Of a stretch of 24,923 bases of DNA, positions 5,625 to 24,923 are shown piece after piece. The notes beneath the pieces were generated by a model. It had not been told where the DNA came from, did no database searches, and was given only the letters and a program-made list of their open reading frames with translations. The first letter of the stretch is position 1. Each line of letters opens with the position of its first letter. Origin of the DNA: a virus; IMG/VR virus record IMGVR_UViG_3300037137_000512, positions 1 to 24,923 of that record; one strand, written 5' to 3'. The translations under genes and the position numbers were made by a program.

Positions 5625-6434
5625 TTAAGTTCCATCCGGCCCGACAAGAGTTTCCTCTTGTTCATTTCCATCTGCATCCAGTCCGGTAATGGTTATAGTT
5701 AATCCGCTCAAATTCATTAATGAAGTTAAAGTAACTTGATGACATAGGTTATCAGGCGCATGAGTTCTATCAAAAAGAATTATGTCTTCATCGGTTGCAC
5801 TTTCGATATGACCTATGAGATTTTCAGCATTATGCAACCGGGTTAAAGGGGTATAAACGCCTGCGCTGGTAACATTAAAAATCTTGCCGTTATTCACGAC
5901 AATAACCTTGTTCATCGGTTCCCAGAAGAAGATACCGTCACCAGCTATATCTAAAGCAGCAGCCCAACCGACATTCATGGTTTCAACACCAAGAGTTGCG
6001 TCTGCCGTAACTGAAGTTAAACTTTTAAAATATGATACGCTGCTAACCGATCCATTATTAGGACCATGCAGACCTGTTTCCGTAAGGGCTAACCCTTCAA
6101 CATCCGTACCCACTAAAGTAAAATGAATACCACTTAGATCGGCTGTTGAAGCAATAGTGACCTTATGACCCCAAATATCGTTAGGTTGACCGGCCATAAC
6201 AAGCCAAGGGCCTGCTCCGGTTGCAGCTACTAAATAACCGTCTACATCGGCAGCAGTCATTCCTGAATCCAAATTGGCAAAATTCACCAATCCAGGCCTT
6301 CGTCTGGTAATTAAACCTATACCTGGAACTGATTCCATATAGCAATCAATCATGTCATCCGAAGATATGGATTCAGCGATAGCATCGGTGTTGTAATATG
6401 GCTTTTTATCGAGAGGTAACGGAACTTGCGCCAT
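5625..6434 (-). CDS. gp10-like hub protein, N-terminal piece (269 aa)
   Basis: The N-terminus (PLPLDKKPYYNTDAIAES...DCYMES...RRRPGLVNF, residues 5-50) has the layout of the start of P22 gp10/packaged-DNA stabilisation proteins: a short hydrophobic lead, an N(C)Y motif, then RRRPG. Residues about 58-160 are a complete copy of the local beta module (DGYLVAATGAGPW ... LSGIHFTLVGTD ... YFKSLTSVTA ... MNVGW). Residues 163-215 resume hub-like sequence (FFWEPMNKVIVVNNGKIFNV). A second module starts near 225 but stops after LVGPDGT. The missing remainder appears to be residues 41 onward of the protein at 2506-5118, so this looks like the front half of a divided gene. Start ATG at 6434 has GGGGATATA before it. 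The piece may still assemble with its partner. Confidence 0.7.
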   Translation of the reverse strand: MAQVPLPLDKKPYYNTDAIAESISSDDMIDCYMESVPGIGLITRRRPGLVNFANLDSGMTAADVDGYLVAATGAGPWLVMAGQPNDIWGHKVTIASTADLSGIHFTLVGTDVEGLALTETGLHGPNNGSVSSVSYFKSLTSVTADATLGVETMNVGWAAALDIAGDGIFFWEPMNKVIVVNNGKIFNVTSAGVYTPLTRLHNAENLIGHIESATDEDIILFDRTHAPDNLCHQVTLTSLMNLSGLTITITGLDADGNEQEETLVGPDGT

Positions 6435-6449
6435 TATATCCCCATGACC

Positions 6450-6701
6450 TTATATGTAAGGAACTTCAGTAAATTTGTCCTTACTTTCAGGTCTTACAAA
6501 AGGAGGTTTTTGACGCTCTTGTCGTGCTCTAATTTGATCGGCAGGATGACGGGGTTCCCAGTCTTGCTTGCAAACCATCATACCGTCCCATCGTTTACGA
6601 AGTTCAGAAGCTTTGAATTTAAAACCGCATTCATCGCAAATACAATTCCAATCTCCCATTTTAAAAAAATCTTTAGACCCTGATCCTTGTGCAAAACTCA
6701 T
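6450..6701 (-). CDS. Small zinc-binding virion-cluster protein (83 aa)
   Basis: CDEC (Cys22, Cys25) and VCKQDWEPRHP (Cys44, with Asp47 or His52 as a possible fourth ligand) suggest one zinc site. The central pattern CGFKFKASELRKRWDGMMVC followed by DWEPRHPAD recurs, from memory, in small proteins of phage head-tail gene clusters; their function is unknown. The C-terminal half is charged and Pro-rich. The start ATG overlaps the upstream stop in an ATGA arrangement, with GAGGG before it, which indicates translational coupling. Confidence 0.7.
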   Translation of the reverse strand: MSFAQGSGSKDFFKMGDWNCICDECGFKFKASELRKRWDGMMVCKQDWEPRHPADQIRARQERQKPPFVRPESKDKFTEVPYI

Positions 6702-7318
6702 GATACCCTCGCTTGTGATACAGTTAAATAAAATATCGCATCTGTATAAGCAGACAATTTAACTCTAACACCGGTTGTGCCTACCAAAGCCTGTGTCTTA
6801 CTATCAACAGTTAAATCGACTGTACCTAACGTCTGCCATGAAGCTGGATTATTTTCATATACATTATCGTTTGTTTGCTGTTTAGTGTATTCAATGGTTC
6901 CAGAGGTTAAATCAAGCGCCAATTCAGTACCAGCATCCGGATAGGTAGCTACAGGATAGGTAGGCGTATAAACATATTCACTTTTACCCCCACCAATCCA
7001 GCCAGCATCATAATGTAACGCCCCAACGGTTGAACTTGCGGTAATAGATACTAAAGTCTTATAGAATTTAACACTATACACTTTAGCATTGTTTCCCCCT
7101 ACCAAACCTTCAGTAACAGACCTATTTTCAGCATCCGTTCCAAGTAAAGTAAAAGTAATACCGCTAAGATCATCGGATGTGTTTATACTTACTTGATGAC
7201 TGCACATATCCCCAGGTTGAGCAAGAAAAGTAACCCAAGGGCCTGCCCCTGTTGCAGAAAGTAAATAACCATCGTCATCCGCAGCCGTCATGGTATATTC
7301 AAATCGTTTAGGCCTCAT
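6698..7318 (-). CDS. Beta-module virion protein, paralogue A (206 aa)
   Basis: Residues about 12-110 are one copy of the shared module: DDDGYLLSATGAGPW, HQVSINTSDDLSGITFTLLG, a GxN turn, FYKTLVSITASSTVGALHYDAGW. The C-terminal 90 residues (QQTNDNVYENNPASW ... QALVGTTGVRVKLSAYTDA ... VSQARVS) match the next upstream protein closely enough that the two are clearly tandem duplicates. The start ATG overlaps the preceding stop by one base (TAATG). Probably a virion or tail-tip component because of its place among hub genes; no function can be read from the sequence. Confidence 0.7.
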   Translation of the reverse strand: MRPKRFEYTMTAADDDGYLLSATGAGPWVTFLAQPGDMCSHQVSINTSDDLSGITFTLLGTDAENRSVTEGLVGGNNAKVYSVKFYKTLVSITASSTVGALHYDAGWIGGGKSEYVYTPTYPVATYPDAGTELALDLTSGTIEYTKQQTNDNVYENNPASWQTLGTVDLTVDSKTQALVGTTGVRVKLSAYTDAIFYLTVSQARVS

Positions 7319-7935
7319 TATGACCTCGCTTGAGATACGGTTACGATAACCACTCCGGTAGTATGCGATGCAACCGTCACTCGTAACCCTGACGTTCCAA
7401 CGAGAGCCTGATTAATTGTATTAGCTGTACCTGAAGCCTGTAAAGCCTGCCATGATGCCGGGTTATTATCGTAAACAGCATCATTAGTTTGCTGTACAGC
7501 ATAATTACAGGTTGTACCGCCTAAATCAACTCCGATTAATGGGCCAGCAGTAGGATAGACATCTGTTGGAAAAGTGGGTGTACGAGCTAATGCCGTCCAG
7601 CCTATATCCATTGTATCCGCTCCGATAGTTGCACTTGGAACAACAGTTACTAAAGTTTTATAATATTTAGTCGAAGTGACAGTATCGGAACCACCGCCAT
7701 GCACATCAGGTAAATTTATAGATTCAGTTATAACTCTATCTTCTGCATCTGTACCCGTAAGAGTAGCAGTTTTTAATTTATGATCCGAAGCTGAATCATT
7801 ATGTATCGTTACAGGATGACTACATCCATCTGCGGCAGTTGTAGCTAATAGCGTCCAGGTTGCTCCTGTTGCGTTTGAAAGATACCCAGTAGCACTTGCA
7901 GCAGCGAGTGTATAAGTAAATTTATGTGGTCTCAT
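7318..7935 (-). CDS. Beta-module virion protein, paralogue B (205 aa)
   Basis: Same architecture as the adjacent downstream protein: a divergent module at about residues 10-115 (ATGYLSNATGATW, HPVTIHND, LTGTDAEDRVITE, YYKTLVTVVPSATIGADTMDIGW) and the C-terminal domain with QQTNDAVYDNNPASW, NQALVGTSGLRVTVAS and VSQARS. Its module carries a short insertion (SDHKLKT) where the others read DLSGI. The start ATG at 7935 follows AAGGAGTAAAAAAAA. Nothing suggests an enzyme; a structural role is inferred from context only. Confidence 0.7.
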   Translation of the reverse strand: MRPHKFTYTLAAASATGYLSNATGATWTLLATTAADGCSHPVTIHNDSASDHKLKTATLTGTDAEDRVITESINLPDVHGGGSDTVTSTKYYKTLVTVVPSATIGADTMDIGWTALARTPTFPTDVYPTAGPLIGVDLGGTTCNYAVQQTNDAVYDNNPASWQALQASGTANTINQALVGTSGLRVTVASHTTGVVIVTVSQARS

Positions 7936-7948
7936 TTTTTTTTACTCC

Positions 7949-9037
<1,089 letters not shown>

Positions 9038-9050
9038 ATCAACCTCCTAA

Positions 9051-9070
9051 GGAAGGGGTTTCCCCCTTCC
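9051..9070 (-). other. Hairpin with GAAA tetraloop just before the collagen gene SD
   Basis: On the minus strand GGAAGGGG-GAAA-CCCCTTCC forms an 8-bp stem closed by a GNRA-type loop. It ends two bases before AGGAGG, the SD of the gene starting at 9037. No T-run follows, so it is not a classic terminator. It could stabilise mRNA ends or tune initiation on the collagen-like gene. Confidence 0.55.
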
Positions 9071-13059: not shown

Positions 13060-13251
13060 TTAATTTTTAACTGAAACCTTTTTTCCTTTACAATATCGAG
13101 AACAATAATCATAATTCATTTCAACATCAAACATAATAAAACGATTTTTTTCATTTCTTCCCAAAACCCGTATAGGACAATCGGAAGTCCATCTTTTTTT
13201 ACAAGAGTTGCAATGTTTAAGTAATAATTTCAATAAAAATTTTTTAATCAT
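13060..13251 (-). CDS. Small Cys-rich basic protein (63 aa)
   Basis: ATG at 13251 overlaps the co-chaperonin stop as ATGA, so translation is probably coupled. The N-terminus is hydrophobic and basic (MIKKFLLKLLLK). HCNSC (13-17), Cys25, and CSRYC (50-54) could hold one zinc. An alternative TTG start at 13269 would add six residues. No family is recognised. AT-rich like its neighbours. It ends just before the hairpin terminator at 12971-13010. Confidence 0.5.
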   Translation of the reverse strand: MIKKFLLKLLLKHCNSCKKRWTSDCPIRVLGRNEKNRFIMFDVEMNYDYCSRYCKGKKVSVKN

Positions 13252-13550
13252 TTTGTTATGACAGCACAAACATCCTCATCATTAATTATTCTGAATTTTT
13301 CTTCAGTATCTGGGTCTTGAATCGTATAACCCGCATTTTCGGCCATAGCAATTTTATCACCAACCTTAGCCCAGGGAAGACCATCATCAAACGCTTTCCA
13401 AGCCGTACTGCCAATAGAAATTACAGTTCCAAAAATCTGTTTATAATTCTTAATATCTCTGGTCGTCTCAGGTATGTGTAACCCACCTTTAGTCATTTTT
13501 TCTATTTCATCCGGTTTCACTATGAGCCTATGCCCTACTGGTGTTATCAT
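13248..13550 (-). CDS. GroES-like co-chaperonin (100 aa)
   Basis: The length and order of motifs match GroES/Cpn10: PVGHRLIVKPDE (4-15), the mobile-loop region TKGGLHIPETTRD (20-32) containing the hydrophobic GLHIP that contacts GroEL, GTVISIGS (41-48), KVGDKIAMAENAG (62-74) and the C-terminal strand INDEDVCAVI. Phages carry such proteins to retune the host GroEL chamber for their capsid proteins, T4 gp31 being the known case. It is encoded directly before the head-assembly genes. Strong SD (AGGAGGATAAG). The mobile loop reads IP rather than the common IVLP/IML. Confidence 0.85.
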   Translation of the reverse strand: MITPVGHRLIVKPDEIEKMTKGGLHIPETTRDIKNYKQIFGTVISIGSTAWKAFDDGLPWAKVGDKIAMAENAGYTIQDPDTEEKFRIINDEDVCAVITK

Positions 13551-13583: not shown

Positions 13584-13913
13584 TTATCCTATATCTTTAA
13601 TCATATGAATAACATTTTTTATATTCTTTCTTTTTTCCCATATTTCTATAATTTTTATATTTCCGATAGAATTAGTCCATAACCCATATCTATAGAAAAA
13701 ACTATTTTCTCTATTTATTCTAAATCTAATTAAAAAACAATAAACCACCCAAGATGATATTAAATTGAGTGTAGTAGGTTCGACATATCTCTTTTTATAA
13801 ATAATAAAAAAAGGGAATACTAAAATTATACATATTTTTGTACGAATATCATTAGTCCAACTGATTCCATATTTACATTCTTTATTTTCAAATCTTCTAT
13901 GAAACAGTATCAT
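13584..13913 (-). CDS. Small predicted membrane protein (109 aa)
   Basis: Two hydrophobic stretches, KICIILVFPFFIIYKK (about 26-41) and NLISSWVVYCFLIRF (about 50-64), and many Arg/Lys give an inside-basic hairpin topology. The ending (WTNSIGNIKIIEIWEKRKNIKN) is soluble. Its SD (AGGAGGATAAT) lies within the last codons of the portal gene, with one base between stop and ATG. No family can be named; very AT-rich. A lysis or superinfection role is possible but not supported by any motif. Confidence 0.5.
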   Translation of the reverse strand: MILFHRRFENKECKYGISWTNDIRTKICIILVFPFFIIYKKRYVEPTTLNLISSWVVYCFLIRFRINRENSFFYRYGLWTNSIGNIKIIEIWEKRKNIKNVIHMIKDIG

Positions 13914-13914
13914 A

Positions 13915-16500
13915 TTATCCTCCTGTTTCTTCTTCCCAAAGTTTTTTTATGCCCTCTCTTTGATTAGGTTGAGCACTCTCTATACCTCTTATATCTTGTT
14001 CGCTTAACTTTGGGATCATTGGTTTAACGGTTTCATTAATATTATAAGGTGCCACCGTAACAATAGGATCAGGTTTATTATATTTAGCTTCATCAATAGT
14101 CATATTAAAATAAAGCAAATCTCTTCTGTTTTCCGGTTTAACATTACGCAAAATAGGCCAATATTTTTCAAGCAATTCAGGACTAATCCCCCACGCTTTA
14201 GCATATTGCATAGGAATCACTTCTATGTCCTGTTTGGCTTTAATCTTTTCAGGGCCTTTTTCTCCTACCCATACGGTTTGACCTTTTTTTACAGTTCCAC
14301 CTTCTTCTCTTCCTGCGGTAACTTCCTCACCTCCAGTATTCGCTCTATTGAGTAAACCCTGCCCAACAGCATTGAGGTCTGGAGCGCCGTTTGCTCCACT
14401 GAGTTGAGATTCAAGGTCGCCCCCCTGCATATCTCCGCTCGGTACACTTCCGCCACCTTCTCCCATAGATTCAGGATTTTGACCGTTGTCGGATGGTTGT
14501 TCCACGCTTCCAGCTCCTCCCGACTCATTTGCTCCATTATCTCCTGTTGCATTTGATTCTCCTTGCGGTTCTGCCGCTTTTTTATTTGCCATTTCAAAAT
14601 CATGTTGCATTTTAATAGAGGCTATCTGAGCCTTATACATATCCAATTGAGACCCTGGTTCCTTAGACTCCGCATCAGCCACATTTTTAATAGCCCTGGT
14701 TTTTAACTCTTCTACCTGAGCAAGCAATAACTCGACTTCTGCTTCCGTCTTTATCTGCTCAATAAGCAATCGTTTGCTCTCAGAATCAGCCTTAGATTGG
14801 GCAGTAATAATGTCGGCCTGAGCTTTGATTAAATTAGGATCAGGTGGAGCTTGATCGGTAAGTAGGGATTGAACCTCTTTTTCCGGTAAAAATCGATTAA
14901 CATCCGGTACGCCGATAGCATCATAATAATATTTAAGTATTTCTATTTTACCACTTTTAGTTGAATTCATTTGTAATGAATTTAACATGGCCTGAGCGCG
15001 GGCAAGGCGCTGGGCTTCTGAGCTTATAGTAGGATCGGCAGTCGGAACAATATCCAAATCCTTCTGCCCGTAATCTGTTTTGAATATCGCCATTTCATCA
15101 TCAAGAACATTAATGTATTCGATTTCATCCATATATATGGAGTTAAGGCGATATAATTTTTTATATTCTGATTTAAGGCTTCTAAAGATTCTTTTATAAA
15201 TACTGGTAAAAACCTTTAACCCTTGTTCGATCATGGCCAATACGGTAGTAGCAGGTGTATTTTGCCCAGGAACTTCACCAGTCATGGTTTCAGATACCGC
15301 CGCTAATTTCATGCCGGTTTCAGTCAATAAACCAAGAAGTTGAAATAAGACGTTAGAAGGCTCCCTAACAGGTAATGGGACCAAATTATCTTTTAACGAA
15401 GCTCCGGTTGTTTCGATGGTCTTCCATTCGAAGGGTTTGAATTTTAAAACCCCACCCTTCATATTTAATCCTTGGGCGACAAATCCACCACTACGATTAG
15501 CCAAAGTACCGGAATCCAATAATTGATTTATGACTGTATTGATTGTTTCATTGATAGGCCCCAGTAAATGGGCAAAACCAAGCATGTAATAACCACCGGC
15601 GGGATCAGGCAAAAACCCATAATCAGTATAATACTGAACAGGCTCTATTCTCCAAATTTTGCCATTTCTTTCTTTTATACCAACATCATCATATCTTGCC
15701 ACTATCCTGCATAATTTTTCAGAATCATGATGAACGGTAGCAATATAAGGTTCTGCATAACCATCATTGTCCAGGTCATACCACATATGCTGTTCAAGAA
15801 ATAATTCTTTTATATCTTCATCGTCGTTTTGTTCCATTACATCGGAAACATCTTCAGTAAATAATCCTAACCGTTCCCGCTCAATGACATCATTTTTATA
15901 CAGCCAAACTTTTTCAGTCATTCTGCGACAAGTCACAAGGTCTTTAATATCTTGATTAACCACAAAATCCATTGGAGAGATACGCACAGATTTATTTCTT
16001 TTTAATATTGGATCACGGTAAGATTTTCTAAAATACATCCCTACAACTGGTAACGAGGTTAAAAGTTGATCGGTATCTTGGTCCCATTCTTCCATCTCGG
16101 TCAATAATTGATAACTCATGTGTTGTCCGACTCGTTTAGACCGTTCTTCCTTTAAAATGCTATTCTTTCCTATAATCTCGCATTTTACAATATCCGGCCC
16201 TTTAACTATCTGAGGATACGCACGAGCGGCAAATTGGATGGATGCCGTTGCAATAAGCGGATACTTAATATTAGCCGCACCTTCCCAGGGAGTATTTTTA
16301 GCCTCTATCTTTTGCCTGGCAATATCGAGACCATAATTAGTTTTATCTTCCCATTCAGTACGTGAAGCCAAATCAATATCATATCCGGCAACAACTCGAC
16401 TTGCTATGTTTTCCAAAACAGTATCGTCTATATCATCAGCAATATTATCTTTGTCTATATTTTTAATAAGCCAAGATATTGGTTTTTTATCTTTATCCAA
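13915..16500 (-). CDS. P22-type portal protein with C-terminal extension (861 aa)
   Basis: Starts with TTG at 16500, directly after the terminase stop, behind a GGGGGGAT SD; the next in-frame Met is over 100 residues in. The body (TPWEGAANIKYPLIATASIQ, ERSKRVGQHMSYQLL, DWxxD-type contacts, GGYYMLGFAHLLGPINETIN, TGEVPGQNTPATTVLAMIEQG) follows the large portal family of P22-like podophages. The dodecameric portal is the DNA entry and exit channel and binds TerL. Residues about 560-630 are a charged helix (barrel-like). Residues about 650-738 are a Gly/Ser/Asn/Glu linker that also encodes a second protein in another frame. After it comes GGTVKKGQTVWVGEKGPE, then about 100 ordered residues ending NQREGIKKLWEEETGG. 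Confidence 0.85.
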   Translation of the reverse strand: MDKDKKPISWLIKNIDKDNIADDIDDTVLENIASRVVAGYDIDLASRTEWEDKTNYGLDIARQKIEAKNTPWEGAANIKYPLIATASIQFAARAYPQIVKGPDIVKCEIIGKNSILKEERSKRVGQHMSYQLLTEMEEWDQDTDQLLTSLPVVGMYFRKSYRDPILKRNKSVRISPMDFVVNQDIKDLVTCRRMTEKVWLYKNDVIERERLGLFTEDVSDVMEQNDDEDIKELFLEQHMWYDLDNDGYAEPYIATVHHDSEKLCRIVARYDDVGIKERNGKIWRIEPVQYYTDYGFLPDPAGGYYMLGFAHLLGPINETINTVINQLLDSGTLANRSGGFVAQGLNMKGGVLKFKPFEWKTIETTGASLKDNLVPLPVREPSNVLFQLLGLLTETGMKLAAVSETMTGEVPGQNTPATTVLAMIEQGLKVFTSIYKRIFRSLKSEYKKLYRLNSIYMDEIEYINVLDDEMAIFKTDYGQKDLDIVPTADPTISSEAQRLARAQAMLNSLQMNSTKSGKIEILKYYYDAIGVPDVNRFLPEKEVQSLLTDQAPPDPNLIKAQADIITAQSKADSESKRLLIEQIKTEAEVELLLAQVEELKTRAIKNVADAESKEPGSQLDMYKAQIASIKMQHDFEMANKKAAEPQGESNATGDNGANESGGAGSVEQPSDNGQNPESMGEGGGSVPSGDMQGGDLESQLSGANGAPDLNAVGQGLLNRANTGGEEVTAGREEGGTVKKGQTVWVGEKGPEKIKAKQDIEVIPMQYAKAWGISPELLEKYWPILRNVKPENRRDLLYFNMTIDEAKYNKPDPIVTVAPYNINETVKPMIPKLSEQDIRGIESAQPNQREGIKKLWEEETGG
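14289..14552 (-). CDS. Overlapping gene nested in the portal gene (87 aa)
   Basis: An out-of-frame gene (+1 relative to the portal) with its own ATG at 14552 and a near-ideal SD, AAGGAG then six bases. The product is a normal-looking, mainly helical, charged protein: MSREELEAWNNHPTTVKILN, then LWEKVAEVYRAE, GATLNLNSVEQTALQT and LLGRVYSIERILEV. The pattern of a short acidic start, W-NHP, a helix, a GATL..S.E.T turn and GR-xxxxxxIL is one I recall from small unnamed phage proteins. In the portal frame the same bases encode a low-complexity Gly/Ser/Asn linker, which suggests that the nested frame is the constrained one here. Function unknown; an assembly helper is a guess. Confidence 0.65.
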   Translation of the reverse strand: MQQEIMEQMSREELEAWNNHPTTVKILNLWEKVAEVYRAEICRGATLNLNSVEQTALQTSMLLGRVYSIERILEVRKLPQEEKKVEL

Positions 16501-18126
16501 TTAATATCCCCCCAATTTTGAACGACCCATTTCAATAGGAGTAAAATCCCCTTCTGCATCTTCATCATCTTCGGGGACACCCATAAATCTAAAACTTTTA
16601 AACATATCGTAAGCGTAAGCGCACATATCCAGAATATCCACATGATAAAACGGGAACTTAAGCATTTCCTCTTTTAGCATATCGATATAGCTTTCATAAA
16701 TATCATTTGAATAAAACAACTTACCATTAGTTAAAGGCCATTGAAGAGCGGCTGAAATACGCTGTTCCTTGCTACGCCCAGCCGGTTTAAGTAAAACCAA
16801 ATTTCTATTTTCAATCGATAAAAATCTTCCCCTGGCCCTTAATGCACCAACAATATGAATTTCAGTTGTAGACAAGCCAACCTTCTCAACCCCCAACTGC
16901 ATTATGATTCCATTTCGAATATACATCTGTACAATATAATTAATGGCTTCGGCATGAGTCATTTTATCAGCTATAAGATCCAATAAATAGACATCACTCG
17001 CGCCAATCTCGTCAATGTAAGGCTTTATACCAACACACCCTATGGACCACATATCTCCAGAGGTCGAATTCTCCTTATCATCACCGGCCTGGTCTATAAC
17101 CATAAACTTATAAATATCCTTGGGAATAAACTTATGTTCAATAGGCTTTAAATAAGTAGGATTTAGTATAACATCGCTTGAGGGAGTAGGATCGCATAAT
17201 TGCTGTGAATTAAAGAATTTTGAAGTTTTAGCCTTTTCCCAAGATTTAGGTTCAAGCAAAATAGGATTACCATCTCTCAACCCATTATCACTTGCCGGAA
17301 TGAGTCTGGTTTCATAAATTTTGCGTTTATCAGGGTATTCCATATCTCGTATCTTTACATTAGGGCCAAAATAAGAATAATAAGTCCCTATTACCCTTGT
17401 TATGTCCGAATCTCGACCGGTTCCCAAGTTTCCTGCCATTTGGAATTTTTCATAAACCTTTTTCAACATATCCGGAGATTCCCTGATATCTTCAGTCTCA
17501 AGATCGTCAAAAACTAATCTCTCAAAGTGTCTGCCTGTTGGCATACCTTCAGTCAACCCCCAAGCCTCCACGCTCGATTCACCACGGGACGCAGATGACC
17601 TGATAAACACCAACCCATCATCTTCACTCCATTTAGGCGACTGAGATTCCGGCTTCTGCCACATTACATCCGGGAACGCCTGCTTAAGCATATCCGATCT
17701 TTCGCAAGTCGTCTTAATTATCCTTAAAAACTTCTTTGCAGCCGGGCGGCTGTAAGCAAGGATACCCGTACAATGATCTGGATGTTTTAGCTCATACTGG
17801 ATAGTTTCCGCAATCGTGATTATCGAACTCTTACCGTGATATCTGGCCCAGATATCCAAGGTATCGCTCTTAGGTCCGGTTTCGACCATCCGACAGGTTT
17901 TAACCCAATGCGGATGATTAGCGTCCCTAACTTCCATTACAAAATATACAATAAACCATAAATCCTGCAATATCAAAGTCCGGCATACCGATACCTCCGG
18001 TAATACCCCCTTCTTAATATCCTCAAATATTCTTACATAATCACCCCGATAGCAAGCCTTATGCTTAGTAGGATCAAGATCCTTCTCGTTTAACGCTATC
18101 TCAGGATGGGGTGTGAAACTAATCAT
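16501..18126 (-). CDS. Terminase large subunit (541 aa)
   Basis: ATPase motor plus headful nuclease that packages DNA into the prohead. The ATPase domain shows a variant Walker A at RYHGKSS (95-101, Lys99) and Walker B LVFDDLE (204-210, with the acidic pair and catalytic Glu). An IGTYYSYFGP segment (246-255) fits the coupling motif, and FFNSQQLCDPTP (304-315) is the usual domain-boundary motif. The RNase H-like nuclease has Asp345 (VIDQAGDD), a Glu414 region (GVEKVG) and Asp497/Asp500 (VDILDMCAYAYDM). Length is normal. The start ATG overlaps the stop of a 59-aa gene (ATGA), with no good SD of its own, so it is probably coupled. The portal gene follows without a gap. Confidence 0.9.
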   Translation of the reverse strand: MISFTPHPEIALNEKDLDPTKHKACYRGDYVRIFEDIKKGVLPEVSVCRTLILQDLWFIVYFVMEVRDANHPHWVKTCRMVETGPKSDTLDIWARYHGKSSIITIAETIQYELKHPDHCTGILAYSRPAAKKFLRIIKTTCERSDMLKQAFPDVMWQKPESQSPKWSEDDGLVFIRSSASRGESSVEAWGLTEGMPTGRHFERLVFDDLETEDIRESPDMLKKVYEKFQMAGNLGTGRDSDITRVIGTYYSYFGPNVKIRDMEYPDKRKIYETRLIPASDNGLRDGNPILLEPKSWEKAKTSKFFNSQQLCDPTPSSDVILNPTYLKPIEHKFIPKDIYKFMVIDQAGDDKENSTSGDMWSIGCVGIKPYIDEIGASDVYLLDLIADKMTHAEAINYIVQMYIRNGIIMQLGVEKVGLSTTEIHIVGALRARGRFLSIENRNLVLLKPAGRSKEQRISAALQWPLTNGKLFYSNDIYESYIDMLKEEMLKFPFYHVDILDMCAYAYDMFKSFRFMGVPEDDEDAEGDFTPIEMGRSKLGGY

Positions 18127-19483: not shown

Positions 19484-19532
19484 AATGGTTAAACTATTAC
19501 AATGGTTAAACCATTATAATGGTTAGACCAAT
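19484..19532. repeat. Three 15-bp inverted repeats at exact 17-bp spacing
   Basis: AATGGTTAAACTATT (19484), AATGGTTAAACCATT (19501) and AATGGTTAGACCAAT (19518). The middle copy is a perfect palindrome with 7-bp arms. They lie 12-60 bp upstream of the leftward -35 box, between the divergent promoters. This is a typical arrangement for cooperative binding of a dimeric regulator; the protein is not identified. Confidence 0.65.
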
Positions 19533-22973: not shown

Positions 22974-23588
22974 ATGGCTATTTTAAAATGGAGTGATGGC
23001 CAGATTATCGCCGCCGATGAAAATAAAACCATCAGACAGTTGGTGGAGGTAAACAAGCATAACCTGCGCGGTGCGAACCTGAGCAATGCGAACCTGAGCA
23101 ATGCGGACCTGCGCGATGCGAACCTGCGCGATGCGGACCTGCGCGGTGCGGACCTGCGCGATGCGGACCTGCGCGATGCGGACCTGCGCGATGCGGACCT
23201 GCGCGGTGCGGACCTGCGCGATGCGAACCTGCGCGGTGCGAACCTGAGCGGTGCGGACCTGAGCGGTGCGAACCTGAGCTATGCGAACCTGCGCGGTGCG
23301 AACCTGAGCGGTGCGAACCTGAGCGGTGCGAACCTGCGCGGTGCGGACCTGCGCGGTGCGGACCTGCGCGATGCGAACCTGCGCGGGGCGGACATAGATT
23401 TTTCCTGCTGGCCGCTATGGTGCGGGTCGGCTAATGTAAATATAGATGAACGCACCGCAAAACAATTACTTGCACATGCATTTAATGCAGCAGAAAAATA
23501 TTGGCAGGGCGGTTTGACGCAAAATCAAAAAAATTGGTTAAATGATTTCCACAGAATTAAATCAGATGAATTTCCGAAATTTAAATAA
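22974..23588 (+). CDS. Pentapeptide-repeat protein (204 aa)
   Basis: A 29-residue start ([20 protein letters not shown]) leads into 22 uninterrupted pentapeptides of the A(D/N)LxX type (residues 30-139), which fold as a right-handed square beta-helix. A distinct C-terminal domain ([20 protein letters not shown], then [15 protein letters not shown]) follows. Known pentapeptide proteins such as Qnr and MfpA mimic DNA and shield gyrase; others have no known role, so a gyrase or DNA-mimic function here is only a possibility. Good SD (AAGGGAGAAAAAAC). The repeat DNA is GC-rich in an AT-rich setting. Confidence 0.85.
23061..23390 (+). repeat. 22 tandem 15-bp repeats in the pentapeptide gene
   Basis: Consensus GCG-RAC-CTG-MGC-RRT. 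Ala and Leu codons are invariant, Asn/Asp differ by one base, Arg/Ser by one base, and the last codon is GGT, GAT, AAT or TAT. The near-identity points to recent expansion or homogenisation. Confidence 0.9.
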
Positions 23589-24155: not shown

Positions 24156-24923
24156 ATGCAAGAATTAACGCCAAAAAATAAAATTATTACAGGATTTAAG
24201 GCAACAGATGAAAATATGTGCTGCAAAGGATTTCAATTTAAGCTCGGAAAATGGTACACGTTTAAGGGGGAGTTAAAATTATGCAAAAAAGGTTTTCATT
24301 TTTGCCAATATCCATCCGGCCCGTGGTCTTATTATGATTTTGGGCGATTATTTAAAGTAGAAGTAAAACAAGTTTTTTTATCTGTTGGTCCTGGATCGGA
24401 TTTGAAGCATGTTGCAAAAAAAATACGATTGATTGAAGAAATTGAAATTGATGGCGACAGGAACACGGGCTACAGTAACACGGGCGACAGTAACACAGGC
24501 AACGGTAACACAGGCAACGGTAACACGGGCGACGGTAACACGGGCGACAGTAACACGGGCTACAGGAACACGGGCTACAGGAACACGGGCTACAGTAACA
24601 CGGGCGACAGTAACACGGGCGACAGTAACACGGGCGACAGGAACACGGGCTACAGGAACACGGGCGACGGTAACACGGGCGACGGTAACACGGGCGACAG
24701 GAACACGGGCTACAGTAACACGGGCTACAGTAACACGGGCTACAGTAACACGGGCTACAGGAACACGGGCTACAGTAACACGGGCTACAGGAACACGGGC
24801 AACGGTAATTGCGGTAATAATCACACAGGATACTTATCAACTGGAGAAGCTCCGTTTTATATTTTTGATCTACCGGCAATTAAAAAAGATGTTGATTTTG
24901 AGTTGGTTAATAAATTATGCGAC
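24156..24923 (+). CDS. NTGxx-repeat protein with conserved N-terminal domain (3' end outside window)
   Basis: Open from ATG 24156 (SD GGAAAGAG) to the right edge, at least 256 codons. Residues 1-100 form a domain I recall from phage and gut bacterial proteins (DUF7666-like): TGFKATDENMCCKGFQFKLG, then CKKGFHFCQYP, YYDFGRLFKVEV and a final IEEIEI. Residues 103-222 are 23 copies of NTG(Y/D/N)(S/R/G) plus one degenerate copy, which probably make a repetitive beta-solenoid. The tail resumes with HTGYLSTGEAPFYIFDLPAI. Function unknown. It lies next to another 15-bp repeat gene. Confidence 0.75.
   Translation, partial: MQELTPKNKIITGFKATDENMCCKGFQFKLGKWYTFKGELKLCKKGFHFCQYPSGPWSYYDFGRLFKVEVKQVFLSVGPGSDLKHVAKKIRLIEEIEIDGDRNTGYSNTGDSNTGNGNTGNGNTGDGNTGDSNTGYRNTGYRNTGYSNTGDSNTGDSNTGDRNTGYRNTGDGNTGDGNTGDRNTGYSNTGYSNTGYSNTGYRNTGYSNTGYRNTGNGNCGNNHTGYLSTGEAPFYIFDLPAIKKDVDFELVNKLCD
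24462..24821 (+). repeat. 24 tandem 15-bp repeats (NTGxx)
   Basis: Consensus AAC-ACG-GGC-NAC-RGN. The first three codons are nearly invariant (two ACA). Codon 4 is TAC, GAC or AAC and codon 5 is AGT, AGG or GGT. The last unit is degenerate. The pattern leaves two long Cys/Val-rich shadow frames on the minus strand. Confidence 0.9.

Follow-up and report, generated by a model that had tools for sequence, protein, structure and literature searches.

Organisation of the locus

We analysed a linear viral contig of 24,923 bases (the window), whose minus strand carries in this order the genes for the terminase large subunit (16501-18126; PHROG 38, E 1e-28), a portal (13915-16500, 861 codons), a 109-codon open reading frame (ORF) that lies between the portal stop and GroES (13584-13913), the GroES co-chaperonin (13248-13550; Pfam PF00166), a scaffold-like protein, two small proteins and the major head protein. 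The portal matches PHROG 1216 (portal), and its core resembles SU10-like portals such as SU10 gp6 (PMC9509320), with 45.7 bits to Pfam PF23899 against a cut-off of 30.

A second minus-strand ORF of 87 codons lies wholly inside the portal gene (14289-14552). It starts with an ATG at 14552-14550, preceded at six bases by the Shine-Dalgarno (SD) sequence AAGGAG (14564-14559), and its stop ends at 14289; its offset from the portal start is 1 modulo 3, which places it in the +1 frame. The program-called ORF is longer (104 codons, ATG at 14603). We prefer the start at 14552 because the ATG at 14603 has no SD and homologues start near a conserved EExxxW motif. Over the nested ORF, the portal reads as a Gly/Ser/Asn-rich low-complexity stretch (residues 650-736, 14293-14553) in which G, S, N, D, Q, E, P, A and T make up 85% of residues, compared to 52% in residues 1-640. 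The coordinates, frame, length, SD and linker composition given in the initial annotation are thereby confirmed.

The portal frame continues for 374 nt beyond the small gene and adds a C-terminal extension of 125 residues (737-861, 13915-14292), which contains the sequence VWVGEKGPE (residues 744-752). Such an extension, together with a disordered tail, sets the window portal apart from the relatives examined.

The 109-codon ORF has a weak codon score, and a search for its relatives found none; it is absent from relatives whose small gene abuts GroES. Elsewhere, the window is rich in repeats. A collagen-like repeat protein is encoded at 7949-9037 (minus strand; Pfam Collagen, E 2e-20), with tandem arrays of 9, 36 and 45 bp at 8376-8710, and a pentapeptide-repeat protein at 22974-23588 (plus strand) with a 15-bp unit repeated 22 times at 23061-23390. 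A second 15-bp array, GGCTACAGTAACACG x23.7, occupies 24453-24808, where more than one minus-strand frame is open. Finally, a 17-bp repeat, AATGGTTAAACCATTAC x2.8, is found at 19484-19530, near the switch of gene direction.

The nested ORF belongs to a conserved family

A GC-rich, low-complexity linker could hold an open frame by chance, with no gene in it. When the portal protein is kept and its codons are redrawn, 0.95% of 2000 draws leave all 87 nested codons free of stops. Given the portal protein, length alone reaches just P 0.01-0.03, and we dropped ORF length as proof of a gene for being too weak.

Homology is decisive. We used the single nested sequence as query against 9,858 six-frame ORFs of at least 35 codons from the window and 153 fetched loci, and obtained 50 matches with E <= 0.01, every one of them the ORF at the portal end. 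Matches to eleven other loci have E-values from 1e-18 to 1e-8. These relatives were reached only via the portal: searching IMG/VR and phage records with the nested protein alone, by tblastn or by pattern, gave no matches.

An iterated HMM search of the 154 loci (window included), from the portal end to GroES, recovers family members in 142, with one match per locus. The family-profile E-values are partly circular because portal-adjacent candidates were used to build the profile, a circularity that does not affect the single-sequence search. Both phmmer and the HMM place the window's nested protein in the family together with free-standing members. One member, in the isolated Alcaligenes phage vB_Af_QDWS535, is short. 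Among the 12 loci without a counted member, two have truncated portals, two are on contigs ending less than 460 nt from the portal and eight are others in which the absence is either real or a divergence too great to detect. One candidate (L002) gave a weak match only (E 1e-4, probability 57%) and was left out of the count; a small ORF before GroES in another locus (L008) was rejected as it does not match the family profile.

Family members share an EExxxW..HPxT motif in which the Trp (W17) is invariant and the Thr (T23) conserved in at least 90% of the alignment, and the nested protein carries both. The distance from the small-gene start to the Trp is fixed (median 9 residues), and the protein is acidic in 140 of the 142 members. 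GroES is the usual downstream neighbour: the small gene directly precedes it, at -120 to +60 nt, in 101 of 137 loci. The window's gene occupies the family position at the portal end and upstream of GroES, with one extra ORF in between. In a further locus (L009), about 3 kb of other ORFs are inserted between the small gene and GroES (6185-9063 of that locus), including an ORF that looks peptidase-like by eye (8480-8878). We searched Pfam, PHROGs and PDB sequences for the family and found no match.

In the 58 loci whose overlap with the portal reaches 60 nt or more, the small frame is open without exception; 50 of these loci have an SD core of at least 4 bases, compared to 29% of control start codons. 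Related portals with the linker retained and the nested frame or its SD lost, which the initial annotation had named as the refuting observation, were looked for in these 58 loci and none were found. The homologues, their synteny, the conserved SD and the constraint described below contradict a chance frame, to which we assign a negligible probability; judged by sequence homology, the nested ORF is a gene. Its initially suspected likeness to free-standing small phage proteins is also borne out, since homologues are free of the portal or barely overlap it in 67 of 142 loci.

The portal stop moves across the small gene

In relatives, the portal ends either upstream of the small gene or within it, and the overlap between the two genes forms a graded series. 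There is no overlap in 52 loci, where the small gene lies up to 2.4 kb from the portal. Overlaps of 1-8 nt occur in 15 loci, of 9-59 nt in 17, of 60-149 nt in 28 and of at least 150 nt but still partial in 29 (57 loci with 60-242 nt). Complete nesting is found in the window only, among the 142 loci with a small gene. Because the small-gene start stays at a fixed short distance from its motif, the portal stop is the moving part.

We built a portal tree from residues 1-620. It requires at least 18 changes between deep and shallow overlap, at least 12 of which are forced by well-supported branches. Deep overlap is found in 54 of 113 non-redundant loci and persists across long branches. As the tree is unrooted, the direction of change at the family's base is an inference.

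All 75 overlaps longer than 8 nt are in phase +1. Lengthening of an upstream gene at its 3′ end is known to produce long unidirectional phase-1 overlaps (Fonseca et al. 2013, PMC3887535; Sabath et al. 2008, PMC2542354), and the family has the features of that process: a fixed small-gene start, a displaced portal stop and the +1 phase. Where the small gene begins with ATGA, phase 2 gives an immediate TGA and a 4-nt overlap (Fonseca et al., PMC3887535). As in those studies, it is the stop of the upstream gene that shifts, and overlaps are phase 1 when long and of the 4-nt ATGA type when short. Unlike in those studies, a single gene pair here spans the range from a gap to full nesting, 75/75 of its long overlaps are phase 1, and the upstream gene can enclose the downstream one entirely.

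When portal stop loss is simulated in non-overlapping relatives, the portal frame reads a median of 5 codons into the small gene in +1, compared to 1 codon in the other phase. All portal stops can be removed by silent changes because in +1 each starts with the third base of a small-gene codon. Such silent removal as the reason for the exclusive +1 phase is a code-based reading that is consistent with the wobble data below.

The full nesting itself might be artefactual or a simple in-frame neighbourhood, with a portal that in truth stops near the small-gene end and an extension that is a separate gene, joined to it by a contig error. Only a single contig is known to carry the full nesting and the extension of 125 residues. 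In L089, the sister of the window, and in its neighbours, portals end within the small gene after overlaps of 155-242 nt, and the stop of L089, the nearest relative, lies 25 nt before the small-gene end. The extension has no relatives in the 154 loci, IMG/VR pattern searches or phage records, and the pattern VGExGPE, sought across the loci, occurs only in the window portal. Nevertheless, the portal frame is open throughout as one continuous frame, with no need for a frameshift, codon usage of the extension is coding-like in the portal frame (0.261 per codon), and a good SD is missing from all eight in-frame start codons that the extension contains. Accordingly, we consider an artefact or a separate gene improbable.

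Both frames are constrained

The initial annotation had proposed to compare substitutions in the two frames. Using nine independent close pairs, in place of codon-position counts over all related pairs, N/s is 0.48 for the small frame (bootstrap 0.34-0.67) and 1.17 for the portal frame (0.90-1.54); the comparison favours the small frame and gives no such signal for the portal.

Nonetheless, each frame retains more identity than the other imposes. Across ten loci, the portal frame alone would give an identity of 0.161 in the small frame, where 0.363 is observed, and the small frame alone would give 0.189 in the portal frame, where 0.246 is observed; the shuffle number of this test is not a probability because the ten loci are related. 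When the nested protein is kept and its codons are redrawn, the portal frame is open in 0 of 2000 draws.

The clearest footprint is at the wobble positions of the nested gene, where T occupies 5 of 81 sites (6%) compared to 41.5% in four structural genes of the window (binomial P 7e-13). In 56 deep-overlap loci, T at small-gene third positions amounts to 6.1%, compared to 25.8% in the GroES gene of the same loci (53 of the 56); in 64 non-overlapped control loci this difference between small gene and GroES is absent. In contexts where a T would create a stop, its total lack simply follows from the portal frame being open. Outside these contexts T is also lower at nested third positions, at 8% compared to 31%, which shows at the codon level that the portal product avoids residues from T-initial codons beyond what the avoidance of stops requires. 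The depletion of T at these third positions accounts for the abundance of Gly, Ser, Asn, Asp and Glu in the portal stretch, in line with the earlier proposal that its odd composition mirrors a second frame. Together, these data support translation of both frames.

Which frame overprinted the other

The initial annotation described a bona fide overprinted gene. While the gene is real, as its homologues demonstrate, its frame is the widely conserved one and not the young one. Because the nested frame is widely conserved and the portal tail is recent and poorly conserved, the overprinting frame is most likely that of the portal, the reverse of what had been supposed. Homology, synteny, graded overlap, phase bias and two-frame constraint are established from sequence comparison, and the reading we favour is that an old conserved small gene, normally located just after the portal, has very probably been read over by the portal gene.

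Classic overprinting would make the nested ORF a new gene born inside an older portal tail. One argument for it is codon usage: in the overlap, the portal frame is genome-like (0.20 per codon) and the nested frame is not (-0.23). A departure from genomic usage usually marks the young frame, so this criterion would make the portal frame the older one, against the direction we favour and in conflict with the phylogenetic criterion. We propose that the wobble constraint accounts for the atypical usage of the nested frame. The lack of a match to the nested protein in Pfam, PHROGs and PDB sequences would also suit a new gene. On the other hand, homologues with the same Trp, Thr and predicted fold lie outside the portal in 52 loci and 15 further loci barely overlap it, and the small frame is better conserved, while portal tails are common only to near relatives. 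A de novo gene should have no homologues outside the overlap, whereas 52 loci show a gap; classic overprinting in the window is very unlikely. In a weaker form, compatible with the unrooted tree, the family as a whole may have arisen in an ancient portal tail and become free-standing afterwards.

De novo viral frames that are +2 to the ancestral frame are, as a class, predicted to be disordered (review, PMC8227390). The window portal frame is likewise +2 to the small gene and predicted disordered, but unlike in that class, codon usage fails to mark it as the younger frame.

Under the favoured reading of an old gene overrun by the portal, the portal stop would shift back and forth across the small-gene start, always leaving the small gene in +1. 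In the window lineage, whose nearest relatives already show overlaps of 155-242 nt, the stop would have been lost once more and the frame extended 374 nt past the small gene, which therefore would have become fully nested. Ribosomes on the portal message would start the small protein from the SD that precedes its ATG. In the Rz/Rz1 spanin pair of lambda-like phages, a larger gene contains the whole of a small one in its +1 frame, with an internal SD start. The layout of the window's small gene is the same; the pairs are not homologous and belong to different modules and functions.

Predicted structure and putative role

The nested protein is confidently predicted to form a short helix followed by a helical hairpin (residues 11-19, 21-42 and 52-86; pLDDT 91). 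Foldseek against PDB and BFVD gives no match at E <= 0.001. The best Z from VIA-align is 6.6, and such scores are common among helical hairpins. Several uncharacterised phage proteins of 66-92 residues in BFVD look similar (TM 0.58-0.62, Foldseek probability up to 1.00); with E above 0.1, we make no claim that they are relatives. The portal model has pLDDT below 50 at residues 643-760 and shows helices with values of 65-77 in parts of the extension.

Because the gene lies between portal and GroES, is nearly universal and encodes a small acidic helical protein, we give about even chances to a putative role in head assembly, near the portal, the scaffold or a GroES/chaperonin step; this role is read from gene position only. 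The small acidic hairpin would then act in assembly, possibly in a fixed ratio to the portal as suggested initially. In such portals, the C-terminal tail points into the head, and each subunit of the window portal would carry its tail and extension suspended at the C-terminal barrel end.

The overlap could also be kept for function, coupling the amounts of portal and small protein or letting the disordered tail bind the small protein. The persistence of deep overlaps over long branches (54 of 113 non-redundant loci), portal-frame identity above what the small frame forces and the exclusion of T-initial codons without stop risk all fit this explanation, but overlap is repeatedly gained and lost on the tree, the portal frame has an N/s near 1, and long phase-1 overlaps should arise even in the absence of selection (PMC3887535, PMC2542354). 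We regard functional retention as unlikely. A more specific version, also improbable, would make the disordered portal tail and the small protein partners encoded by one DNA stretch, with the moving stop tuning their ratio or binding. If true, the window's full nesting would be the extreme case.

Our analysis defines an unannotated small head-module family, which gene finders can miss because overlap distorts codon usage. It also provides a graded natural series from a gap to complete nesting around one conserved gene, in more than 100 related phage loci and with repeated changes on the tree. With this series, a single system allows one to measure how new C-terminal protein sequence is born and what dual coding costs.
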